Made by a program: the position numbers and the translations under genes
The notes under the pieces: model-generated
What the model was told of the DNA's origin: nothing
What the model saw: the letters and a program-made list of their open reading frames with translations, nothing else
Database searches by the model: none
Assembly: GCA_937858895.1 (NCBI GenBank)
Contig: CALLZN010000445.1
Coordinates: 1 to 34,677, forward strand
Length of the DNA stretch: 34,677 bases
Source of the DNA: an uncultured bacterium
GTDB lineage: Bacteria > Planctomycetota > UBA1135 > GCA-002748355
Direction: 5' to 3'
Shown: positions 3,620-16,674 of the stretch, piece by piece
Layout of the letters: every line of letters begins with the position of its first letter
How positions within the stretch are numbered: the stretch's first letter is position 1

Positions 3620-6369
3620 TGCCCGAGCCTCACGAGGCGGAACTTGGCAAAGCGTGCGTCGACCTTGGAGCCGAGCCGGGGCACGCAGCGGATGTCGACG
3701 TAGAGTTCGCGGTTGCCGGCCGCGATGCGCATCTTCTTGCGAGCGACCTCTTGCCCGCCCCAACGCAGAACGATGCTGCCTTCCTCGGTCTCGGTCGTGA
3801 CGTCGATCACGTACTCGATCTCGAGAGTCGTGAAGGTGCCACGCTGCGTCGGGAAGAGCTCAGGGCGCTCCTCGGCGTCGATCTTGGTGGTCGTCTTCTC
3901 GGTCTCCTGGGCACCGCGCTTCAGGTAGGCGAAGGGGCGGCGTCCATCGAAGCCGATGCGCGCATCGATCGTCGACCGCAGTTCGCCACCGCCCGCCTCC
4001 TTCTCGTCCGAGACGCGCAGGTAGATCTCGGCCCCTGCCGTCGCACCGAAGTCGGCGTCGATCGCGACGCTCACGAAGTCACCACCACGATCGATCGTGT
4101 AGCGCGTGAAGCACGGCACTTCGCGACTCGACTCGCCGCGGACGGTGAGTTGGCCGTCCGCGAAGATCCAGAGGATCTTGTCCTGGCCCTTGCGCTCGGT
4201 GCGCCAGTGCGGAGCCTGGGCTTCGAAGTCATCGGACAGCTGGCGCTTGCCGCGATGGTAGGCGAGGCGCTTTTGGGTCACCTCCGCCCACTTCTTCATC
4301 GGGTCCTCGGCGTCCTTGATGAACTGGGCCGTGTCACGCAGCATCGCGACCGCGTCCGGTGTGTAACCGAGGCGGTTGCGCAGCAGCGCCTGCCAGATCT
4401 TGGCGTGAACTTCGCCACCTTGACTCTGCGCGACCTCGAACGAGTTGCGCGCGCGGTCGTTCTTGCGCAGGTGGTAGCGCACGATCCCCAAGTACTCGTG
4501 GTAGAGCGGCTCCTTGCGGCGTCCGGCCTTGGCCCGCTCCAACTGCTCGGAGCAGGCGCGCGCCGCGATGCGCTCGGCGTTCTCGAGCAAGGCAAAGGCC
4601 CCGCTCCCGCCGATGCGCGCCTCTTCGAGCTGCACGCGCGTGAGTTCCATGGCGGCCTCGACGAAGTCGAAGCGTTCGCGCAAACAGAGGTCGAGCACTT
4701 CGCGGGCCTCGGCCTGTCGCTGCGACTTGCGGTAGGCGCGACCGAGCAAGTAGAGCACGTAGGGGTCGCGCGGCGCGACCTTTTGCGCGCGCTCGAGAAC
4801 CGCGACCGCGTCGCCGATGCGCGCCGGGTCGAGGAGCAACAAGAAGCCTTCGGCTGCGAGTGCGAGTTGGCGTTGCAGCGGATCGCGCGTCTGGGCATTG
4901 CGAAACGCGACCAAGGCCTCGTCATAGCTCTTGGCTTCGAAGGCACAGAGGCCGGCCCCTACGAGGGCGATGGCCGACGCCGTATCGGTCGTCGCCGCCG
5001 CGAGGAAGGCAGAGCGCGCCTTGGCGATGTCGCCACGCGCCATCTCCACCGCCCCGCGCAGCAGCAGGACCTGCTCGCTCGAAGCGATCGCGCTGACTTC
5101 GTCGAGCGTGCGCGCCGCGAGATCGACGTCGGCCTCGGCGAGGGCAGCGCGGATGAGCTGTGACAAGACCGAGAAGCGCAGTTCAGGCCCGTGTGCCGGC
5201 GAGATGCGCACCCGCGCTTCCCGCGCGAAGCGCAGGGCCTCGACCTCGCGACCGCGTTCGGACAAGAAGGTCGAGAGCGCGAGAGCGTTACGCGGGTCCG
5301 TTTCGTCCGTGCGAACAGCCTCGAGCAGATGGTCTTCGGCGGCCTCGTCGAGGCGCAGGCGCGCTTCGAGAACACCACGCTCGCGAGCAACAAAGGCCGC
5401 ACTCGCGAAGGGCCCCGTCGCTAGCTCGTCGAAGAGCGCGACTTCTTGCTCGAAGTCGGCCGTCCGGGCGTAGACGTCGAGGAGCAGCTCGTAGCCACGC
5501 TGGGCGTTGGGCGCGATCTCGATGTACTTCCGCGCTTGGGCGACGGCCTCGTCGAGCGCCTCAGGATGCTGAGCCTCGCGACCGAGCAAGGTCGCAATGA
5601 AACGCTCGCGATCGCGCAGTCCGTCCTCGCCGCTCGGGATGCGCCGGCGCGCGAGCGCGATACGATTCTCGATCGAGTCCGCAAACTCGATGCGCGCGAC
5701 TTGCCCGGGCTCGAAGCTCTGCTGAGCGACGATGACCTTGCCCGTCTCGGGATCGACGCGCCGCAGGAGCACCGGCGCGCGGAAGGGCGAGCTGAGCACG
5801 CGGACGTCATCGTCGGTCGTGCTGCCATGCAGATAGCGTTGCTCGCCGATGACGAGTCCCCAGTAGCTACGATTGTCGACGGTGTCGAGCTTGTCATAGC
5901 GCTGCTCCCAGGCCGCCTCGCTGCTCGCTTCGCTGGCCCCGCCGCTCGAGACGTCGCTGCTCGCCTCGTTCGCGCCGACGCTTCCCACGGCTTCGGTCTC
6001 AGGCTTGAGGACGACGCTGTGGACCGCCGCGTCGACGCGCAGACGATCGTAGTGGCGCACGGCGATGCCGATCGGCAGCGGCGGCCGCACGAGCGGCAAG
6101 TCCGGCAAGGGCGGCAACTCGAGCTCGGGCCAATCGAGGGGCAACAACGGCAACGTGCGCGTCGGCACCAAGAAGGGATCGCGCAGCGCGGCCAATTCGA
6201 TCTCGCTCGCCGAACGCACGAGGCGCTCGGGGATCGCGACCCGCTCGTAGTCCTTGGTCTTGGCGCGCGGCGACGCACGCTCGGCGTCCCCACCTCGCGA
6301 CGTCACGAAGAGGAGGGCCAAGAGGGCCCCCGTGCAGAGCAGCAAGACTTGTTCTTTGCGCAGAGCCAA
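3616..6369 (-). CDS. GspC/PilP-like anchor fused to TPR repeats and a beta-sandwich-like C-terminus
   Basis: Encodes a 917-residue inner-membrane-anchored periplasmic protein. Residues 6-23 are a hydrophobic anchor (QVLLLCTGALLALLFVTS). Residues 63-66 are RDPF, followed by a proline/leucine linker and a small beta-rich segment; RDPF right after a flexible linker is characteristic of GspC/PilP family proteins that connect the inner platform to the outer-membrane secretin. Residues of roughly 250-680 are helical and TPR-like (LYLLGRAYRKSQRQAEAREV, LALSTFLSERGREVEALRFA). Roughly the last 220 residues, starting near DDFEAQAPHWRTERKG, are beta-rich and resemble LamG/DUF1080-type sandwiches. It lies 4 bases after the PilO-like gene and overlaps gspG. 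Membrane anchor and TPRs are clear; GspC/PilP equivalence is inferred from the motif and gene order. Confidence 0.72.
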   Translation of the reverse strand: MALRKEQVLLLCTGALLALLFVTSRGGDAERASPRAKTKDYERVAIPERLVRSASEIELAALRDPFLVPTRTLPLLPLDWPELELPPLPDLPLVRPPLPIGIAVRHYDRLRVDAAVHSVVLKPETEAVGSVGANEASSDVSSGGASEASSEAAWEQRYDKLDTVDNRSYWGLVIGEQRYLHGSTTDDDVRVLSSPFRAPVLLRRVDPETGKVIVAQQSFEPGQVARIEFADSIENRIALARRRIPSGEDGLRDRERFIATLLGREAQHPEALDEAVAQARKYIEIAPNAQRGYELLLDVYARTADFEQEVALFDELATGPFASAAFVARERGVLEARLRLDEAAEDHLLEAVRTDETDPRNALALSTFLSERGREVEALRFAREARVRISPAHGPELRFSVLSQLIRAALAEADVDLAARTLDEVSAIASSEQVLLLRGAVEMARGDIAKARSAFLAAATTDTASAIALVGAGLCAFEAKSYDEALVAFRNAQTRDPLQRQLALAAEGFLLLLDPARIGDAVAVLERAQKVAPRDPYVLYLLGRAYRKSQRQAEAREVLDLCLRERFDFVEAAMELTRVQLEEARIGGSGAFALLENAERIAARACSEQLERAKAGRRKEPLYHEYLGIVRYHLRKNDRARNSFEVAQSQGGEVHAKIWQALLRNRLGYTPDAVAMLRDTAQFIKDAEDPMKKWAEVTQKRLAYHRGKRQLSDDFEAQAPHWRTERKGQDKILWIFADGQLTVRGESSREVPCFTRYTIDRGGDFVSVAIDADFGATAGAEIYLRVSDEKEAGGGELRSTIDARIGFDGRRPFAYLKRGAQETEKTTTKIDAEERPELFPTQRGTFTTLEIEYVIDVTTETEEGSIVLRWGGQEVARKKMRIAAGNRELYVDIRCVPRLGSKVDARFAKFRLVRLGQ

Positions 6370-12193: not shown

Positions 12194-13897
12194 TCAGCGC
12201 CCCGCAGTCCTGGCAGCCCAGACCCACGAACTCTCGAAGACGCTGTTTCTCTCCTTCGAGAGGTCATCCCATTCCGTATCGCCAGCGATCGCGCGATCGA
12301 TGGGCCGCGGCGATTCGGGCTCGACTTCGGGCAGCAAAAAGCGGAAGACGGCTCCCCCACCCGGATTGTCTTCACAGGCGATGAAGCCGCCGTGCATGTT
12401 GACGATCTCCTTCGAGATCGGCAGGCCGAGCCCGGTCCCCTCGGGCTTGTCCGTGAGGTTGTGCACGCCCTGGCGGAAGCGATCGAAGATGCGCTCCTTC
12501 TCACCATCATCGGGCACACCTGGGCCGCGGTCGGAGATGCGCACTTCGATACCACCATCGAGGCGCGCTACGCGGACGGTCACGTCCGTCCCGTCGGGCG
12601 AGAACTTCCACGCGTTCGTGAGCAGGTTCGTGAGCACTTGGTGCAGACGATCGCGGTCGCCGAAGTAGGAGATCTTCTCATCGGGGAGCTCGACCTTGAA
12701 GCCGACGGGCTTGTTGTGCTCGAGGCCCGAGAGGGCTTTGACCGCGGCTTCGACGAGTTCGCGGAAGTCGAAGTTCGCGAGCTCCCAAGTCATGCACCCG
12801 GCTTCGATCTTGGCGAGGTCGAGGACCTGGTTGATGAGGCGCGACAAGCGCTCCGACTCGGCCTTGATGATCGTCAAGAACTCGCGTCGCAGCTCGGGGT
12901 CCTCCTCGTCACCATAGTCGAGCAGGATCTCGGAGAAGGAGCGGATGCTCGTGAGCGGCGTGCGCAGTTCGTGGCTGACCGACGAGAGGAAGCTGTCCTT
13001 GGCGCGATCGAGGGTCTGGAGTTCCTCATAGGCGCGCAAGAGTTCGCGCGTGCGCGCGGTGACTTTCTGCTCGAGTGTTCGGTTCTGCTCTTCGATGCGC
13101 CGACGTGAGAACTCGAGTTTCTCGCTCATCACGTTGAAGCTCATCGCGAGGGCCGAGATCTCGTCATCGCCGTGGACCGGGATCTTGACGTCGCGCGTAC
13201 CTTGTCCGAGCGAGACCGCGGCCTCGGTCAGACCGCGGAGGTGGCGCAGGACGCCGGCGGTCAAGAGCAAGCCGAGCCCCATCGCGAGCACGAGGAGGGC
13301 CATGCCGACCGGGGCAATCGCCTGCACGTACGCAGCGAGCGCAGCAACGATCGGCTCGCGCGATGCCCAGATCAGGAGCGTGCCGAGGCGACGCGCTGCC
13401 TTGCGGTCACCGGGGTCGAGAAGGCCCCCTTCGTCGCCGGCTCCCGTGGCGGGATCTTTGGCGTCACCGAGGATGGCGGCTGCCACGCTGTAGCCCTCGA
13501 CGTCCGCACTACGGAAGGGCTTGACGCCATCCTCACCGAGTTCCCCCCAGGCCTCCAGGTTGCTCGGCCCCACCGGACCCGCCACGAGGAGTTGGTCGAC
13601 TTCGCCGCGATCGCCGTTGCGCCAGATCTCGACGCGAAGCACCGAAGGCACGAGGGCCAGCATGGAGTCCACGGCCTCACGCGCCGGATCCTGGTTACCA
13701 GCCTTCGTCGCTTGGCGGATGCTGCTGTCCCGCGCGAGCATCTCGGCGGCGCCGACGAGCTTCTGCCGGTGCTGCTCCTCCATGGTCATGCCGACGCGCT
13801 GCACGGTGTAGCGCGCAAAAGCGAGCACAGCGACCGAGGTCGTGAGGATCGCCGGCAAGACGAGCTTGGATCGGAGGCTCAGGCGCAGGACGGACAT
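12194..13897 (-). CDS. Membrane sensor histidine kinase (periplasmic sensor, HAMP, HisKA, HATPase)
   Basis: Encodes 567 residues from ATG 13897, preceded by GAAGAG about 10 bases upstream. Layout: membrane helix 1 at about 10-28, an extracytoplasmic sensor region of about 165 residues, membrane helix 2 at about 190-215, HAMP at about 215-265, then coiled coil. HisKA holds SSVSHELRTPLTSIRSF with the phosphorylated His near 309. The HATPase_c boxes are N (TNLLTNAWKFSPDG, about 423-436), G1 (SDRGPGVPDDG) and G2 (EGTGLGLPISKEIV). No response regulator gene lies nearby, so it is an orphan kinase and its partner and signal are unknown. A frame extending to 14002 is rejected because MSVLRLSLRSKL is a natural start before helix 1. 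A 203-bp repeat element lies just upstream (14013-14215). Confidence 0.9.
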   Translation of the reverse strand: MSVLRLSLRSKLVLPAILTTSVAVLAFARYTVQRVGMTMEEQHRQKLVGAAEMLARDSSIRQATKAGNQDPAREAVDSMLALVPSVLRVEIWRNGDRGEVDQLLVAGPVGPSNLEAWGELGEDGVKPFRSADVEGYSVAAAILGDAKDPATGAGDEGGLLDPGDRKAARRLGTLLIWASREPIVAALAAYVQAIAPVGMALLVLAMGLGLLLTAGVLRHLRGLTEAAVSLGQGTRDVKIPVHGDDEISALAMSFNVMSEKLEFSRRRIEEQNRTLEQKVTARTRELLRAYEELQTLDRAKDSFLSSVSHELRTPLTSIRSFSEILLDYGDEEDPELRREFLTIIKAESERLSRLINQVLDLAKIEAGCMTWELANFDFRELVEAAVKALSGLEHNKPVGFKVELPDEKISYFGDRDRLHQVLTNLLTNAWKFSPDGTDVTVRVARLDGGIEVRISDRGPGVPDDGEKERIFDRFRQGVHNLTDKPEGTGLGLPISKEIVNMHGGFIACEDNPGGGAVFRFLLPEVEPESPRPIDRAIAGDTEWDDLSKERNSVFESSWVWAARTAGR

Positions 13898-14012
13898 CGA
13901 CACTTCACTCTTCGGCCGGCTGGGCCTCGCGTCTTTGCTGCCGCTTGGCGCATTTTCTGTGCGCGAGACAGCACGTGAGGCGATCGCGGGACAAAGCCCC
14001 ACGCCAAGGTGA

Positions 14013-14215
14013 ACCTCACTGTTGCATAAGATCCGCCCGAAGTCGTGCGGCGTGGGCCTCTGGGCCCACGCTGCACGACTGTTCTGGCGAGTCGCTGGAG
14101 GTCACATTTTGTGACGAGCGCGCGCAGGCGACCCGTTGGGTCGTCGAGCACGATTCGGCACAAAACGGGGCCTCCAGAGGCCGCCAGACGGGTGGAGGTT
14201 ATGCAACATTGAGGT
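14013..14215. mobile_element. 203-bp MITE-like structured repeat, copy 1
   Basis: Non-coding element matching 15740-15942 with only three substitutions and no indels, in the same orientation. The ends form imperfect inverted repeats: left ACCTCACTGTTGCATAA, right TTATGCAACATTGAGGT (16/17 complementary), extending to 27 bases at 23/27. The flanking dinucleotide is GA on both sides, consistent with a 2-bp target duplication. Internal hairpins are at 14042-14079 (17-bp stem, one G.T pair in this copy), 14101-14115 (GTCACA/TGTGAC), 14129-14143 (CGACCC/GGGTCG) and 14169-14182 (GGCCTC/GAGGCC). It separates the 3' end of the Clp-like gene from the histidine kinase start. No transposase is visible, and open frames across it look like chance. 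Confidence 0.8.
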
Positions 14216-14235
14216 GAAATCCCGCGCGTTCGAGC

Positions 14236-15603
14236 TCAGACCTTGCAGGTCTCGAGCTCGGGCGCGTCTTCGAAGACTCGCTTCGTCGTGCGACCGTCGT
14301 CGACAACCTCGACGAGCACCTTACCCGCTCGCACGCGCACGTAGAGCCGGGCGCCGCGACCGAGGCCATGGTCGAGGATGGCTTCTACGAGCCGATCTTC
14401 GACCTCGCGCTTGATCAAGCGGTCGAGCTCGCGAGCGCCGTACTCTTCGCTGAAGCCGCTGCGCGCCAAGTGTCGCCGGAGGCCGCTCGAGAAGCGGATC
14501 TCGAAGCCGCGCTTGCCGAGCAAGTCCGAGATCTGGGCGAGCATCTTGCCGGCGATGCGCACGCAGTCCTCGATGTCGAGCGGGTTGAAGACGACGATCT
14601 CGTCGATGCGGTTGAGGAACTCGGGGCGGAAGGACTCGCGCAGAGCCTCGCGCGTGATCGACTTGTGGTCGATCTGGACGAGGGTCGCGCGCTTCTTCCA
14701 ATCGAAGCCCATGCGCGAGCGGACTTGGTCGATCTGCTCGATGCCGACGTTGCTGGTCAGCAAGATGATCGCATCCTGGAACGAGATGGTCTCGCCGCGA
14801 CTGTCGGTCAGCATGCCCTCGTCGAGGATCTGCAAGAGAAGGTTGTGCACCTTGTGGTGGGCCTTCTCGATCTCGTCGAAGAGGACGACGCAGTGCTTCT
14901 TGGCCTTGACGGCCTCGGTGAGGTAGCCACCTTCGGCGTGGCCGATGTAGCCCGGCGGCGAGCCGATCAGCTTCGCGTACTCGTGCGGCAGGGCGTACTC
15001 GCTGCAGTCGATACGCACGAGCTTGCCAGGCTCGGACCACAGCGAGGCAGCGAGCGCCTTGGCAATCTCGGTCTTGCCCGTGCCCGTGCGCCCGACGAGG
15101 AAGAAGGTCCCGACCGGCGTGTTCGGCCGCTTGAGGCCGATGGCCGCCTTGAGGATGGACTTGACGAGACGCCCAACGGCTTCGTCTTGACCGACGATGC
15201 GGCGCTTGAGCGAACGCTCGAGACCGGCCACCTCGCGTGGCACGGCGAGCAAGTGCCCGTCGGCATCGCTGCCGACTTGCGCGCTCGTCGCGGTCTCACC
15301 CGGTGCCGGCAGCGACACGTGGTGGATCTCGAGGCTCGGGTTGACATCGATGCAGACCTGGTAGAGCAGGTCTTCGATGGTCGTCGGATCGTAGTCGTCC
15401 TCGAGGGCCTTGAGGCGTGATCGCACGGGCCCTTGGGCGTCGGGCAAGCACTCGCGTATCACCGCTTGGCGATACTCGGCCTTGTTCGTGACGTCGACAC
15501 CACTGACGAGCCCGAGTTCATGGTCCGCGAAGACGCGGACTCGAATGAACTCATCGAGCAGGTCGAAGTACTTCAGGACCAGGTTGCCGTCTTCGTACTT
15601 CAC
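14236..15603 (-). CDS. Clp/Hsp100-like ATPase with a single AAA domain
   Basis: Encodes 455 residues from GTG 15603, with GGAG 6 bases upstream. The N-terminal 130 residues are not a recognisable Clp_N repeat (MKYEDGNLVLKYFDLLDEFI). Then comes one AAA module of the ClpA/B/C D2 type: Walker A GRTGTGKT (171-178), pore-loop GYIGHAEGG (219-227, canonical GYVGYEEGG), Walker B VVLFDEIEKAH (239-249), sensor 1 LLTSN, arginine-finger region FRPEFLNRIDEIVVF (325-339), and a ClpB D2-small-like C-domain with sensor 2 GAREL. Clp unfoldases with two AAA domains exceed 750 residues, so this is a short form. No ClpP-binding loop (I/L-G-F/L) is evident. ATPase activity is well supported; the substrate and partner are unknown. 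The gene is bracketed by the two 203-bp repeats. Confidence 0.88.
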   Translation of the reverse strand: MKYEDGNLVLKYFDLLDEFIRVRVFADHELGLVSGVDVTNKAEYRQAVIRECLPDAQGPVRSRLKALEDDYDPTTIEDLLYQVCIDVNPSLEIHHVSLPAPGETATSAQVGSDADGHLLAVPREVAGLERSLKRRIVGQDEAVGRLVKSILKAAIGLKRPNTPVGTFFLVGRTGTGKTEIAKALAASLWSEPGKLVRIDCSEYALPHEYAKLIGSPPGYIGHAEGGYLTEAVKAKKHCVVLFDEIEKAHHKVHNLLLQILDEGMLTDSRGETISFQDAIILLTSNVGIEQIDQVRSRMGFDWKKRATLVQIDHKSITREALRESFRPEFLNRIDEIVVFNPLDIEDCVRIAGKMLAQISDLLGKRGFEIRFSSGLRRHLARSGFSEEYGARELDRLIKREVEDRLVEAILDHGLGRGARLYVRVRAGKVLVEVVDDGRTTKRVFEDAPELETCKV

Positions 15604-15739
15604 GAAGTCTCCATGCCGTTCGCAAAGGGTCTAGCACGTGAACGCACGCGCTGGCTCCGCTGTCATCGACGCGAACGACGCCTCGACTTGACCCCACTGG
15701 TGCAAAGCAGGGTGTTTCTCGTCATCGCGTGAGGGGTAC

Positions 15740-15942
15740 ACCTCACTGTTGCATAAGATCCGCCCGAAGTCGTGCAGCGTGGGCCTCTGGGCCCACGCTG
15801 CACGACTGTTCTGGCGAGTCGCTGGAGGTCACATTTTGTGACGAGCGCGCGCAGGCGACCCGTTGGGTCGTCGAGCACGATTCGGCACAAAAGGGGGCCT
15901 CCGGAGGCCGCCAGACGGGTGGAGGTTATGCAACATTGAGGT
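15740..15942. mobile_element. 203-bp MITE-like structured repeat, copy 2
   Basis: Second copy, same orientation as 14013-14215 and 98.5% identical. Terminal repeats are at 15740-15756 and 15926-15942; the flanking dinucleotide is AC on both sides. The main hairpin (15769-15806) is perfect here: GTCGTGCAGCGTGGGCC, loop TCTG, and the exact complement. The fourth hairpin is a perfect 14-base palindrome, GGCCTCCGGAGGCC. The right end lies 12 bases before the GTG start of the rhomboid gene, so the element forms its upstream region and may be transcribed as 5' leader or act as a terminator for opposing transcription. Confidence 0.8.
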
Positions 15943-15954
15943 ACACTCCGCGCC

Positions 15955-16674
15955 GTGTTCCCGCTCAAGGACAGCGTTCCCGCAAAGCACCCATCGATCA
16001 TGATGTGGGTCGTCATCGCGGCCAACGTCTTGGTCTTCTTCGTGCAGAACGACCTCGCGCGGGCGAATCCCGAGCAGCCAGCCTGGCTCGACTACGCGAT
16101 CGTGCCGGCGCTCGTTTCCTGGAACGATCCGCTGACTTGGTTTCCGCTCGTCTCGAGCCAGTTCTTGCACGGCGGCCTCGGCCACCTCATCTCCAACCTC
16201 TGGATCCTCTGGATCTTCGGGGACAACGTCGAGGACCGCATGGGGCCGCTCCTTTTCGCGGTCTTCTATATCGCGTGCGGCTGTGTCGCCGGCCTCGTGC
16301 ACATCGCCTTCGGGCCGTCGTCCCTCGTGCCGACGATCGGCGCGTCGGGCGCCATCGCGGGCGTCCTCGGCGCCTACCTCGTCCTCTATCCGCACGCGCG
16401 CGTGCTGACGCTCGTGCCGCTCTTGTTCTTGCCGCTCGTCTATGACTTGCCGGCCTACTTTTTTCTCATCCTCTGGTTCGGGCTCCAGGTCTTGAACGGC
16501 AGCTTGAGCCTCTTCACGAGTGAAGCGCTGAGCTCGGTCGCGTGGTGGGCCCACGTGGGTGGCTTCGTGGCAGGCGCGCTGCTCTGTCGCCTCTTCGCGC
16601 GTCGGCGCCTGCACCCGCGCGAACTCCAGTTGGACGAATGGACCCTGCAAGACCTTTGGAAGCGCATGCGATGA
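15955..16674 (+). CDS. Rhomboid family intramembrane serine protease
   Basis: Encodes 239 residues with about six membrane helices. Rhomboids cleave transmembrane segments within the bilayer using a Ser-His dyad. Seen here: HGGLGHLISNLWIL (H-x(4)-H-x(3)-N on helix 2, Asn about 81), PTIGASGAIAGVLGAYLVLY with the nucleophile Ser about 131 in GASG, and WWAHVGGFVAGALL with catalytic His about 200. The start is GTG 15955 (FPLKDSVPAKHPS), only 12 bases past the end of repeat copy 2. No good ribosome site is seen except the GAGG supplied by the repeat end, which is rather distant. The gene overlaps the following membrane protease gene by 4 bases, suggesting coupled expression. Confidence 0.92.
   Translation: MFPLKDSVPAKHPSIMMWVVIAANVLVFFVQNDLARANPEQPAWLDYAIVPALVSWNDPLTWFPLVSSQFLHGGLGHLISNLWILWIFGDNVEDRMGPLLFAVFYIACGCVAGLVHIAFGPSSLVPTIGASGAIAGVLGAYLVLYPHARVLTLVPLLFLPLVYDLPAYFFLILWFGLQVLNGSLSLFTSEALSSVAWWAHVGGFVAGALLCRLFARRRLHPRELQLDEWTLQDLWKRMR

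Follow-up and report, generated by a model that had tools for sequence, protein, structure and literature searches.

The stretch of DNA analysed here (the window, 34,677 nucleotides) contains two nearly identical repeats, recorded in a preliminary description as 203-bp units at 14013–14215 and 15740–15942. Direct comparison confirmed that the two units have the same orientation and differ by three substitutions, with no insertions or deletions. The element proper measures 201 bp once a 4-bp target duplication is set outside. The gene between the copies, described earlier as Clp-like, encodes a protein of 455 amino acids that matches the AAA_2 and ClpB D2-small families. A sensor histidine kinase gene and a rhomboid-family gene lie on the outer sides (Table 1). 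Our dicodon gene caller assigned no protein-coding gene inside either copy. The insertion point of copy 2 falls on the opening bases of TACACT, a short way upstream of the GTG start of the rhomboid gene (15942–15957). In G001, a genome of the same genus, TACACT is also found a few bases before the rhomboid start (extract L113, about 4345–4372), where it resembles the −10 box of a leaderless gene.

Table 1. Features of the two element copies and the adjoining genes, in window coordinates.
Feature	Position	Strand	Remark
Sensor histidine kinase gene (HAMP-HisKA-HATPase)	12194–13897	-	neighbour, outside the element
Target-site duplication TGAA, left of copy 1	14010–14013	.	TGAA on both sides
Element copy 1, 201 bp, subfamily A, CCTCACTGTTGCATAA...TTATGCAACATTGAGG	14014–14214	+	sequence comparison
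Left terminal inverted repeat of copy 1	14014–14039	+	5' side of the closing stem
Arm A of copy 1	14041–14080	+	18-bp hairpin, 4-nt loop; pairing kept, most pairs differ in other genera
Arm B of copy 1	14083–14188	+	long imperfect hairpin, apex near 14136–14138
Right terminal inverted repeat of copy 1	14189–14214	+	3' side of the closing stem
Target-site duplication TGAA, right of copy 1	14215–14218	.	
AAA_2/ClpB-D2-small ATPase gene	14236–15603	-	between the copies, outside the element; stop codon starts 17 nt from the copy 1 target
Target-site duplication TACA, left of copy 2	15737–15740	.	TACA/TACA; G001 has one TACA at the corresponding empty site
Element copy 2, 201 bp, subfamily A	15741–15941	+	3 substitutions relative to copy 1
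Target-site duplication TACA, right of copy 2	15942–15945	.	
Rhomboid-family gene	15955–16674	+	outside the element; GTG start 13 bp from the end of copy 2

A genome-wide search, as had been proposed earlier, located the element at about 40 places in the host draft genome (5.77 Mb in 449 contigs, 87.6% complete). Many copies lie at contig ends, which is expected of a repeat, and some partial copies may therefore be two halves of one. The copies fall into two subfamilies that are about 84% identical, one ending in CCTCA and the other in CCCCA, and both element ends were recovered in many of them. Boundaries read from the flanks place a 4-bp duplication outside CCTCA...TGAGG. The terminal inverted repeats pair at 23 of 26 positions, with opposed mismatches at position 6 and positions 17–18. 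The imperfect 27-base inverted ends reported earlier are thus real, but their outer A and T belong to the duplication. The duplication itself had been read as 2 bp (GA/GA and AC/AC). It is 4 bp long, TGAA/TGAA at copy 1 and TACA/TACA at copy 2, so the 2-bp repeat is the middle of a longer one. Identical 4-mers are present on both sides of 10 of the 14 copies with two flanks (50 of 56 positions match), and the maximum reached in 100,000 permutations was 8. The target is TNNA, with T at position 1 and A at position 4 in 29 of 34 sites each.

The kinase, AAA ATPase and rhomboid genes occur in the same order in G001, and the ATPase proteins are 87% identical. At the site of copy 2, the alignment shows CCACTACACTCGCCGCGTG in G001, with one TACA and no element. 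An empty site in a relative had been suggested as a check, and copy 2 supplies it. The interval between the kinase and ATPase genes, where copy 1 lies in the window, is filled in G001 by about 0.9 kb of unrelated sequence (contig C143, extract L113, about 1800–2840) in which the element is absent. This interval is thus altered in both genomes and is uninformative save for the absence of the element. Two near-identical direct repeats flanking one gene could also be the ends of a composite transposon in which the ATPase gene travels together with both copies, as the preliminary description had considered. This is extremely improbable, as each copy has its own 4-bp duplication, there is no common outer duplication (TGAA versus TACA), and the gene lies between the same neighbours in G001, where neither copy is present. 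It also has orthologues across the family. The different outer duplications together with the conserved synteny rule out a composite transposon, and the two repeats in the window are independent insertions.

The element is short and carries no transposase gene; it has terminal inverted repeats, a constant 4-bp duplication, dispersed multiple copies and an empty site. These are the properties of a MITE, and the earlier proposal of a non-autonomous transposable element is upheld by the copy number, the inverted ends, the duplication and the empty site in the same-genus genome. An old local duplication, or a REP/BIME-type repeat spread by a RAYT (HUH) enzyme without target duplication, would suit an extragenic palindromic repeat whose many copies lie near the ends of genes. 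Neither is easy to reconcile with the perfect 4-bp duplications, the true inverted ends and the single-target empty site, and HUH-type movement leaves no duplication. We regard both as barely credible.

Shorter forms of the element measure about 53, 101 and 137 bp. They keep both ends and have, or nearly have, their own duplications. On contigs C27 and C137 the element is reduced to about 53 bp and has both ends but neither arm; similar copies lie on C31 and C134. The copy on C232 has arm A without arm B, and one copy in another genus is without arm A. As the ends-only forms have matching or nearly matching duplications, these derivatives suggest that a transposase acts on the ends in trans and that the element would be mobilised in this way. 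There are also three 77-bp half elements (C381, C63 and C181), all of which start at the tip of arm B, with their first positions no more than 2 nt apart. Cleavage of the hairpin tip or a one-ended insertion could have produced them. One of the three has matching TCTA on both sides. At contig ends, copies on C400, C241, C22, C339 and C11 diverge at position 190 into a common hairpin-like ATCGGGTCAGCCGGGCCGTTGCCAGCCCGGCTTCCCACAG, which may be a different repeat or belong to a longer version of the element.

The fold of the unit as a whole is far more stable than expected by chance. The RNA fold has an energy of −145.3 kcal/mol, compared with a shuffled mean of −81.7 kcal/mol (z = −13.4), and the corresponding value for the DNA fold is z = −12.6. 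In the minimum-energy fold of the top strand, a closing stem carries two arms, and arm A is an 18-bp hairpin with a 4-nt loop. The preliminary description had predicted a closing stem with four arms. The single closing stem and a fold beyond chance were borne out, but the arms number two: hairpins 2 and 4 of that description are the two sides of a single long arm, the tip of which is hairpin 3. A search of Rfam gave no match at the gathering threshold in the window, and none over the element in three lineages at E values up to 0.5.

Pairing is maintained where the sequence varies. Between the consensus sequences of the two subfamilies, 13 pairs differ and 12 of these remain paired, seven by two-sided change. 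A run of TTTT:AAAA in one is CAGG:CCTG in the other, with the pairing intact. In an alignment of 16 copies, 98.3% of cells are paired and the covariation score is 0.105, compared with 0.060 in shuffles (0 of 500 as high). The number of pairs with two-sided changes is less decisive in this set (44 of 500 shuffles). Searching all 154 available genomes of the class (the order also has 154) identified homologues in two other genera of the order, with 67–71% identity. These have 4-bp duplications of their own (CTTA, TCGA and TTCA) and exactly the same layout of 27 nt followed by 18-4-18 and the long arm, with most letters of arm A changed. The 18-4-18 plan of arm A is present in four lineages, and at least two types of base pair are seen at 15 of its 18 positions. 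Once the other genera are added, 24 of 84 pairs have two-sided changes (0 of 500 shuffles; slid controls reach at most 7). In this larger set, 97.7% of cells are paired and the covariation score is 0.226, compared with 0.098 in shuffled alignments (0 of 500) and at most 0.047 in slid controls. The earlier remark that substitutions between the two window copies keep pairing therefore holds, and the covariation count extends it to other genera. On the evidence of these alignments, compensatory changes, in the host genome and among three genera alike, are shown to have preserved the closing stem and the two arms of the top strand. Arm A may have been exchanged in one piece, not altered pair by pair. 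The folded structure is probably of importance for the life or the movement of the element.

If only duplex palindromes were important, G.T and A.C departures from pairing would be equally frequent on the top strand. The alignment has G.T in 23 column pairs and A.C in 7 (P = 0.005), and for columns that are Watson–Crick in copy 1 alone the numbers are 16 and 5 (P = 0.027); these statistics are suggestive, not final, as the copies share ancestry and the sequences are related. When G.T pairing is allowed, the top strand is more stable than the bottom strand in 14 of 14 copies, by 13–36 kcal/mol. With G.T pairing turned off, both strands of most copies fold about equally well. The excess of G.T over A.C and the greater stability of the top strand in every copy, both drawn from copies of common ancestry, together suggest that one strand, as RNA or single-stranded DNA, is kept folded.

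A competing account treats the element as an ordinary palindromic MITE. The fold would simply follow from the long inverted repeats, and template switching or gene conversion within hairpins, with no selection on a folded strand, would account for the paired changes. Palindrome correction can indeed yield paired changes. Extensive base pairing of the transcript is common in bacterial MITEs (PMC2229807, PMC10969869), and the deletions at the arm bases mark such hairpins as mutational hot spots. Yet correction would give perfect palindromes with both strands alike, whereas here G.T departures outnumber those of A.C, unpaired 1×1 sites persist and the top strand is consistently the more stable. 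The arm lengths (27 / 18-4-18) are moreover identical across genera. The G.T excess is a moderate argument against template switching, given P values of 0.005–0.03 from related sequences. On balance, we consider this account possible, leaning towards unlikely, and prefer a fold that is kept for the element.

The element tends to lie beside gene ends. Genes were predicted with a home-made dicodon caller trained on long open reading frames of the host genome, and its calls in the window agree with the family matches. Among the 20 insertions with both flanks, 9 are at most 5 nt from a predicted stop codon, compared with 9% of TNNR sites outside genes (P = 3e-5), and 13 are at most 20 nt away, compared with 15% (P = 5e-7), a statistic that makes no distinction between targeting and selection. 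The clustering fits landing where genes are unharmed, or a true preference for targets that resemble stop codons (TGAA, TTGA and those containing TAG). Copy 2, which lies 13 bp upstream of the rhomboid start, is an exception. By hand count, the orientation of the element relative to the adjoining gene is balanced, with 8 copies in the same and 9 in the opposite direction. A cis-acting 3'-UTR role with fixed orientation was rejected for this reason.

The enrichment beside stop codons, the very stable and conserved fold and the top-strand bias would all suit a structured non-coding RNA, or a 3'-UTR or riboregulator cassette, that serves host genes at these sites and was spread by transposition. 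The balanced orientation does not fit such a cassette, nor do the missing Rfam match and the result of a simple scan, in which no promoter-like site was found. The sites also differ between genomes, so no conserved host gene is involved. A role in the service of the host is thus quite unlikely.

The best explanation as a whole, to which we assign a probability of about 0.8, is that the copies are independent MITE insertions made by a transposase supplied in trans, and that the fold is kept for the element's own cycle. The ends are inverted repeats of the CCYCAMTGTTGCATWA type, and a 4-bp TNNA target is duplicated. A DDE transposase from a partner insertion sequence, acting in trans, would cut and join these ends. 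The folded single strand, either RNA or single-stranded DNA, would contribute to recognition, stability or regulation. That it would serve the element and not the adjoining genes follows from the random orientation relative to those genes. A stricter version is tentative and in our view rather doubtful. It holds that the top strand must fold into two arms on a three-way junction, as RNA or single-stranded DNA, for the element to propagate, that selection keeps this fold across genera as the sequence drifts, and that landing at stop codons is preferred. If true, a DDE-type element with inverted ends and a 4-bp duplication would have a step that depends on a single strand or on RNA. To our knowledge, this combination is not known from described MITEs.

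As a MITE, the element is of a known kind. What is new is the fold with a closing stem and two arms, its compensatory conservation across genera, and the strand bias. A MITE fold is usually presented from a single sequence and put down to the inverted repeats as a side effect. Here, several diverged lineages, many compensatory changes and a strand bias make selection on the folded strand of a MITE testable from sequence alone and afterwards in the laboratory. With its clear empty site, its deletion series and its clustering at stop codons, the family is also a good model for the low-harm spread of small elements in a GC-rich genome.

Several described families share features with the element. 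Bacterial MITEs such as ERIC, RUP, Correia/NEMIS and QMITE (PMC2229807, PMC10969869) are likewise non-coding, 100–200 bp long and multi-copy, with inverted ends, a target duplication, a highly base-paired transcript, deletion derivatives and a transposase presumably supplied in trans. They are A+T-rich, commonly duplicate TA and form one long stem-loop, whereas the present element is G+C-rich, duplicates 4-bp TNNA and has a closing stem with two arms, a fold kept between genera though most letters of one arm differ. CIR of Caulobacter and Brucella also has a two-armed predicted RNA fold that is conserved between genera (PMC2229807). Its arms are joined by a linker, and it lacks a stem that closes the element end to end as well as clear inverted ends or duplications, whereas our element has a 26-nt closing stem, inverted ends and 4-bp duplications. 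YPAL/RU-2 of Yersinia (about 168 bp) is similar in being not A+T-rich, in its strong fold and target duplication, and in having empty and filled sites (PMC2229807). Its duplications, however, vary in length (3–26 bp), its targets extend across or border on dyad symmetry and its inverted repeats are internal, in contrast to the constant 4 bp and terminal repeats seen here.

A transposase with the element's ends, which the preliminary description had proposed to look for, was not found in the host draft genome, and a search there by end pattern gave no autonomous copy with a body. Five contigs end in an identical 52-bp sequence starting with CCCTGATGTTGCATTC and preceded by TTGA, AGAA, TGAA, TACA or TTTA. 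These contig ends are similar to the element ends and follow the same target rule, and the body is absent from the assembly. We take them for one end of a partner insertion sequence that is present in multiple copies and the body of which the assembly has lost. The candidate ends of the full element are CCCTGATGTTGCATTC... or CCYCACTGTTGCATWA.... Across all 154 genomes of the order, the partner end was found in the host genome only. The genome-wide end pattern gave two matches in public genomes, no more than chance, and plasmids, phages and viral contigs gave nothing convincing.

IS1380 and piggyBac-like DDE transposons have ends starting with CC and short duplications, of 4–5 bp in the IS1380 family (PMC12116815). 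The 4-bp duplication and CCY ends of our element are within this rule; there is no identity of end sequence. Four actinobacterial IS1380 plasmid elements have CC-starting ends of other sequence, three of them with 5-bp duplications. The length of the duplication and the CC start thus make the IS1380 family plausible rather than demonstrated, and an IS1380-type transposase as the source is only a guess. The sole gene of this type in the host genome lies on C278 and is cut by the contig end. It was set aside as a likely source, as the sequenced side has no matching end. Around the start of this gene there is a 20-nt inverted repeat of 90% identity (ACTCGAAACGCCCCTCCCAG; extract L074, 1421–1498), possibly a regulatory site or an end. 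On the reverse strand of the first 60 bases of C384 (L094), the sequence GTGCGCCAGGAAAGCCTGGTGGAGGTAAG... breaks into a partner-like end, CCCTGATGTTGC. The interrupting sequence resembles the start (5') of a group II intron, as if such an intron had entered the insertion sequence at its end.
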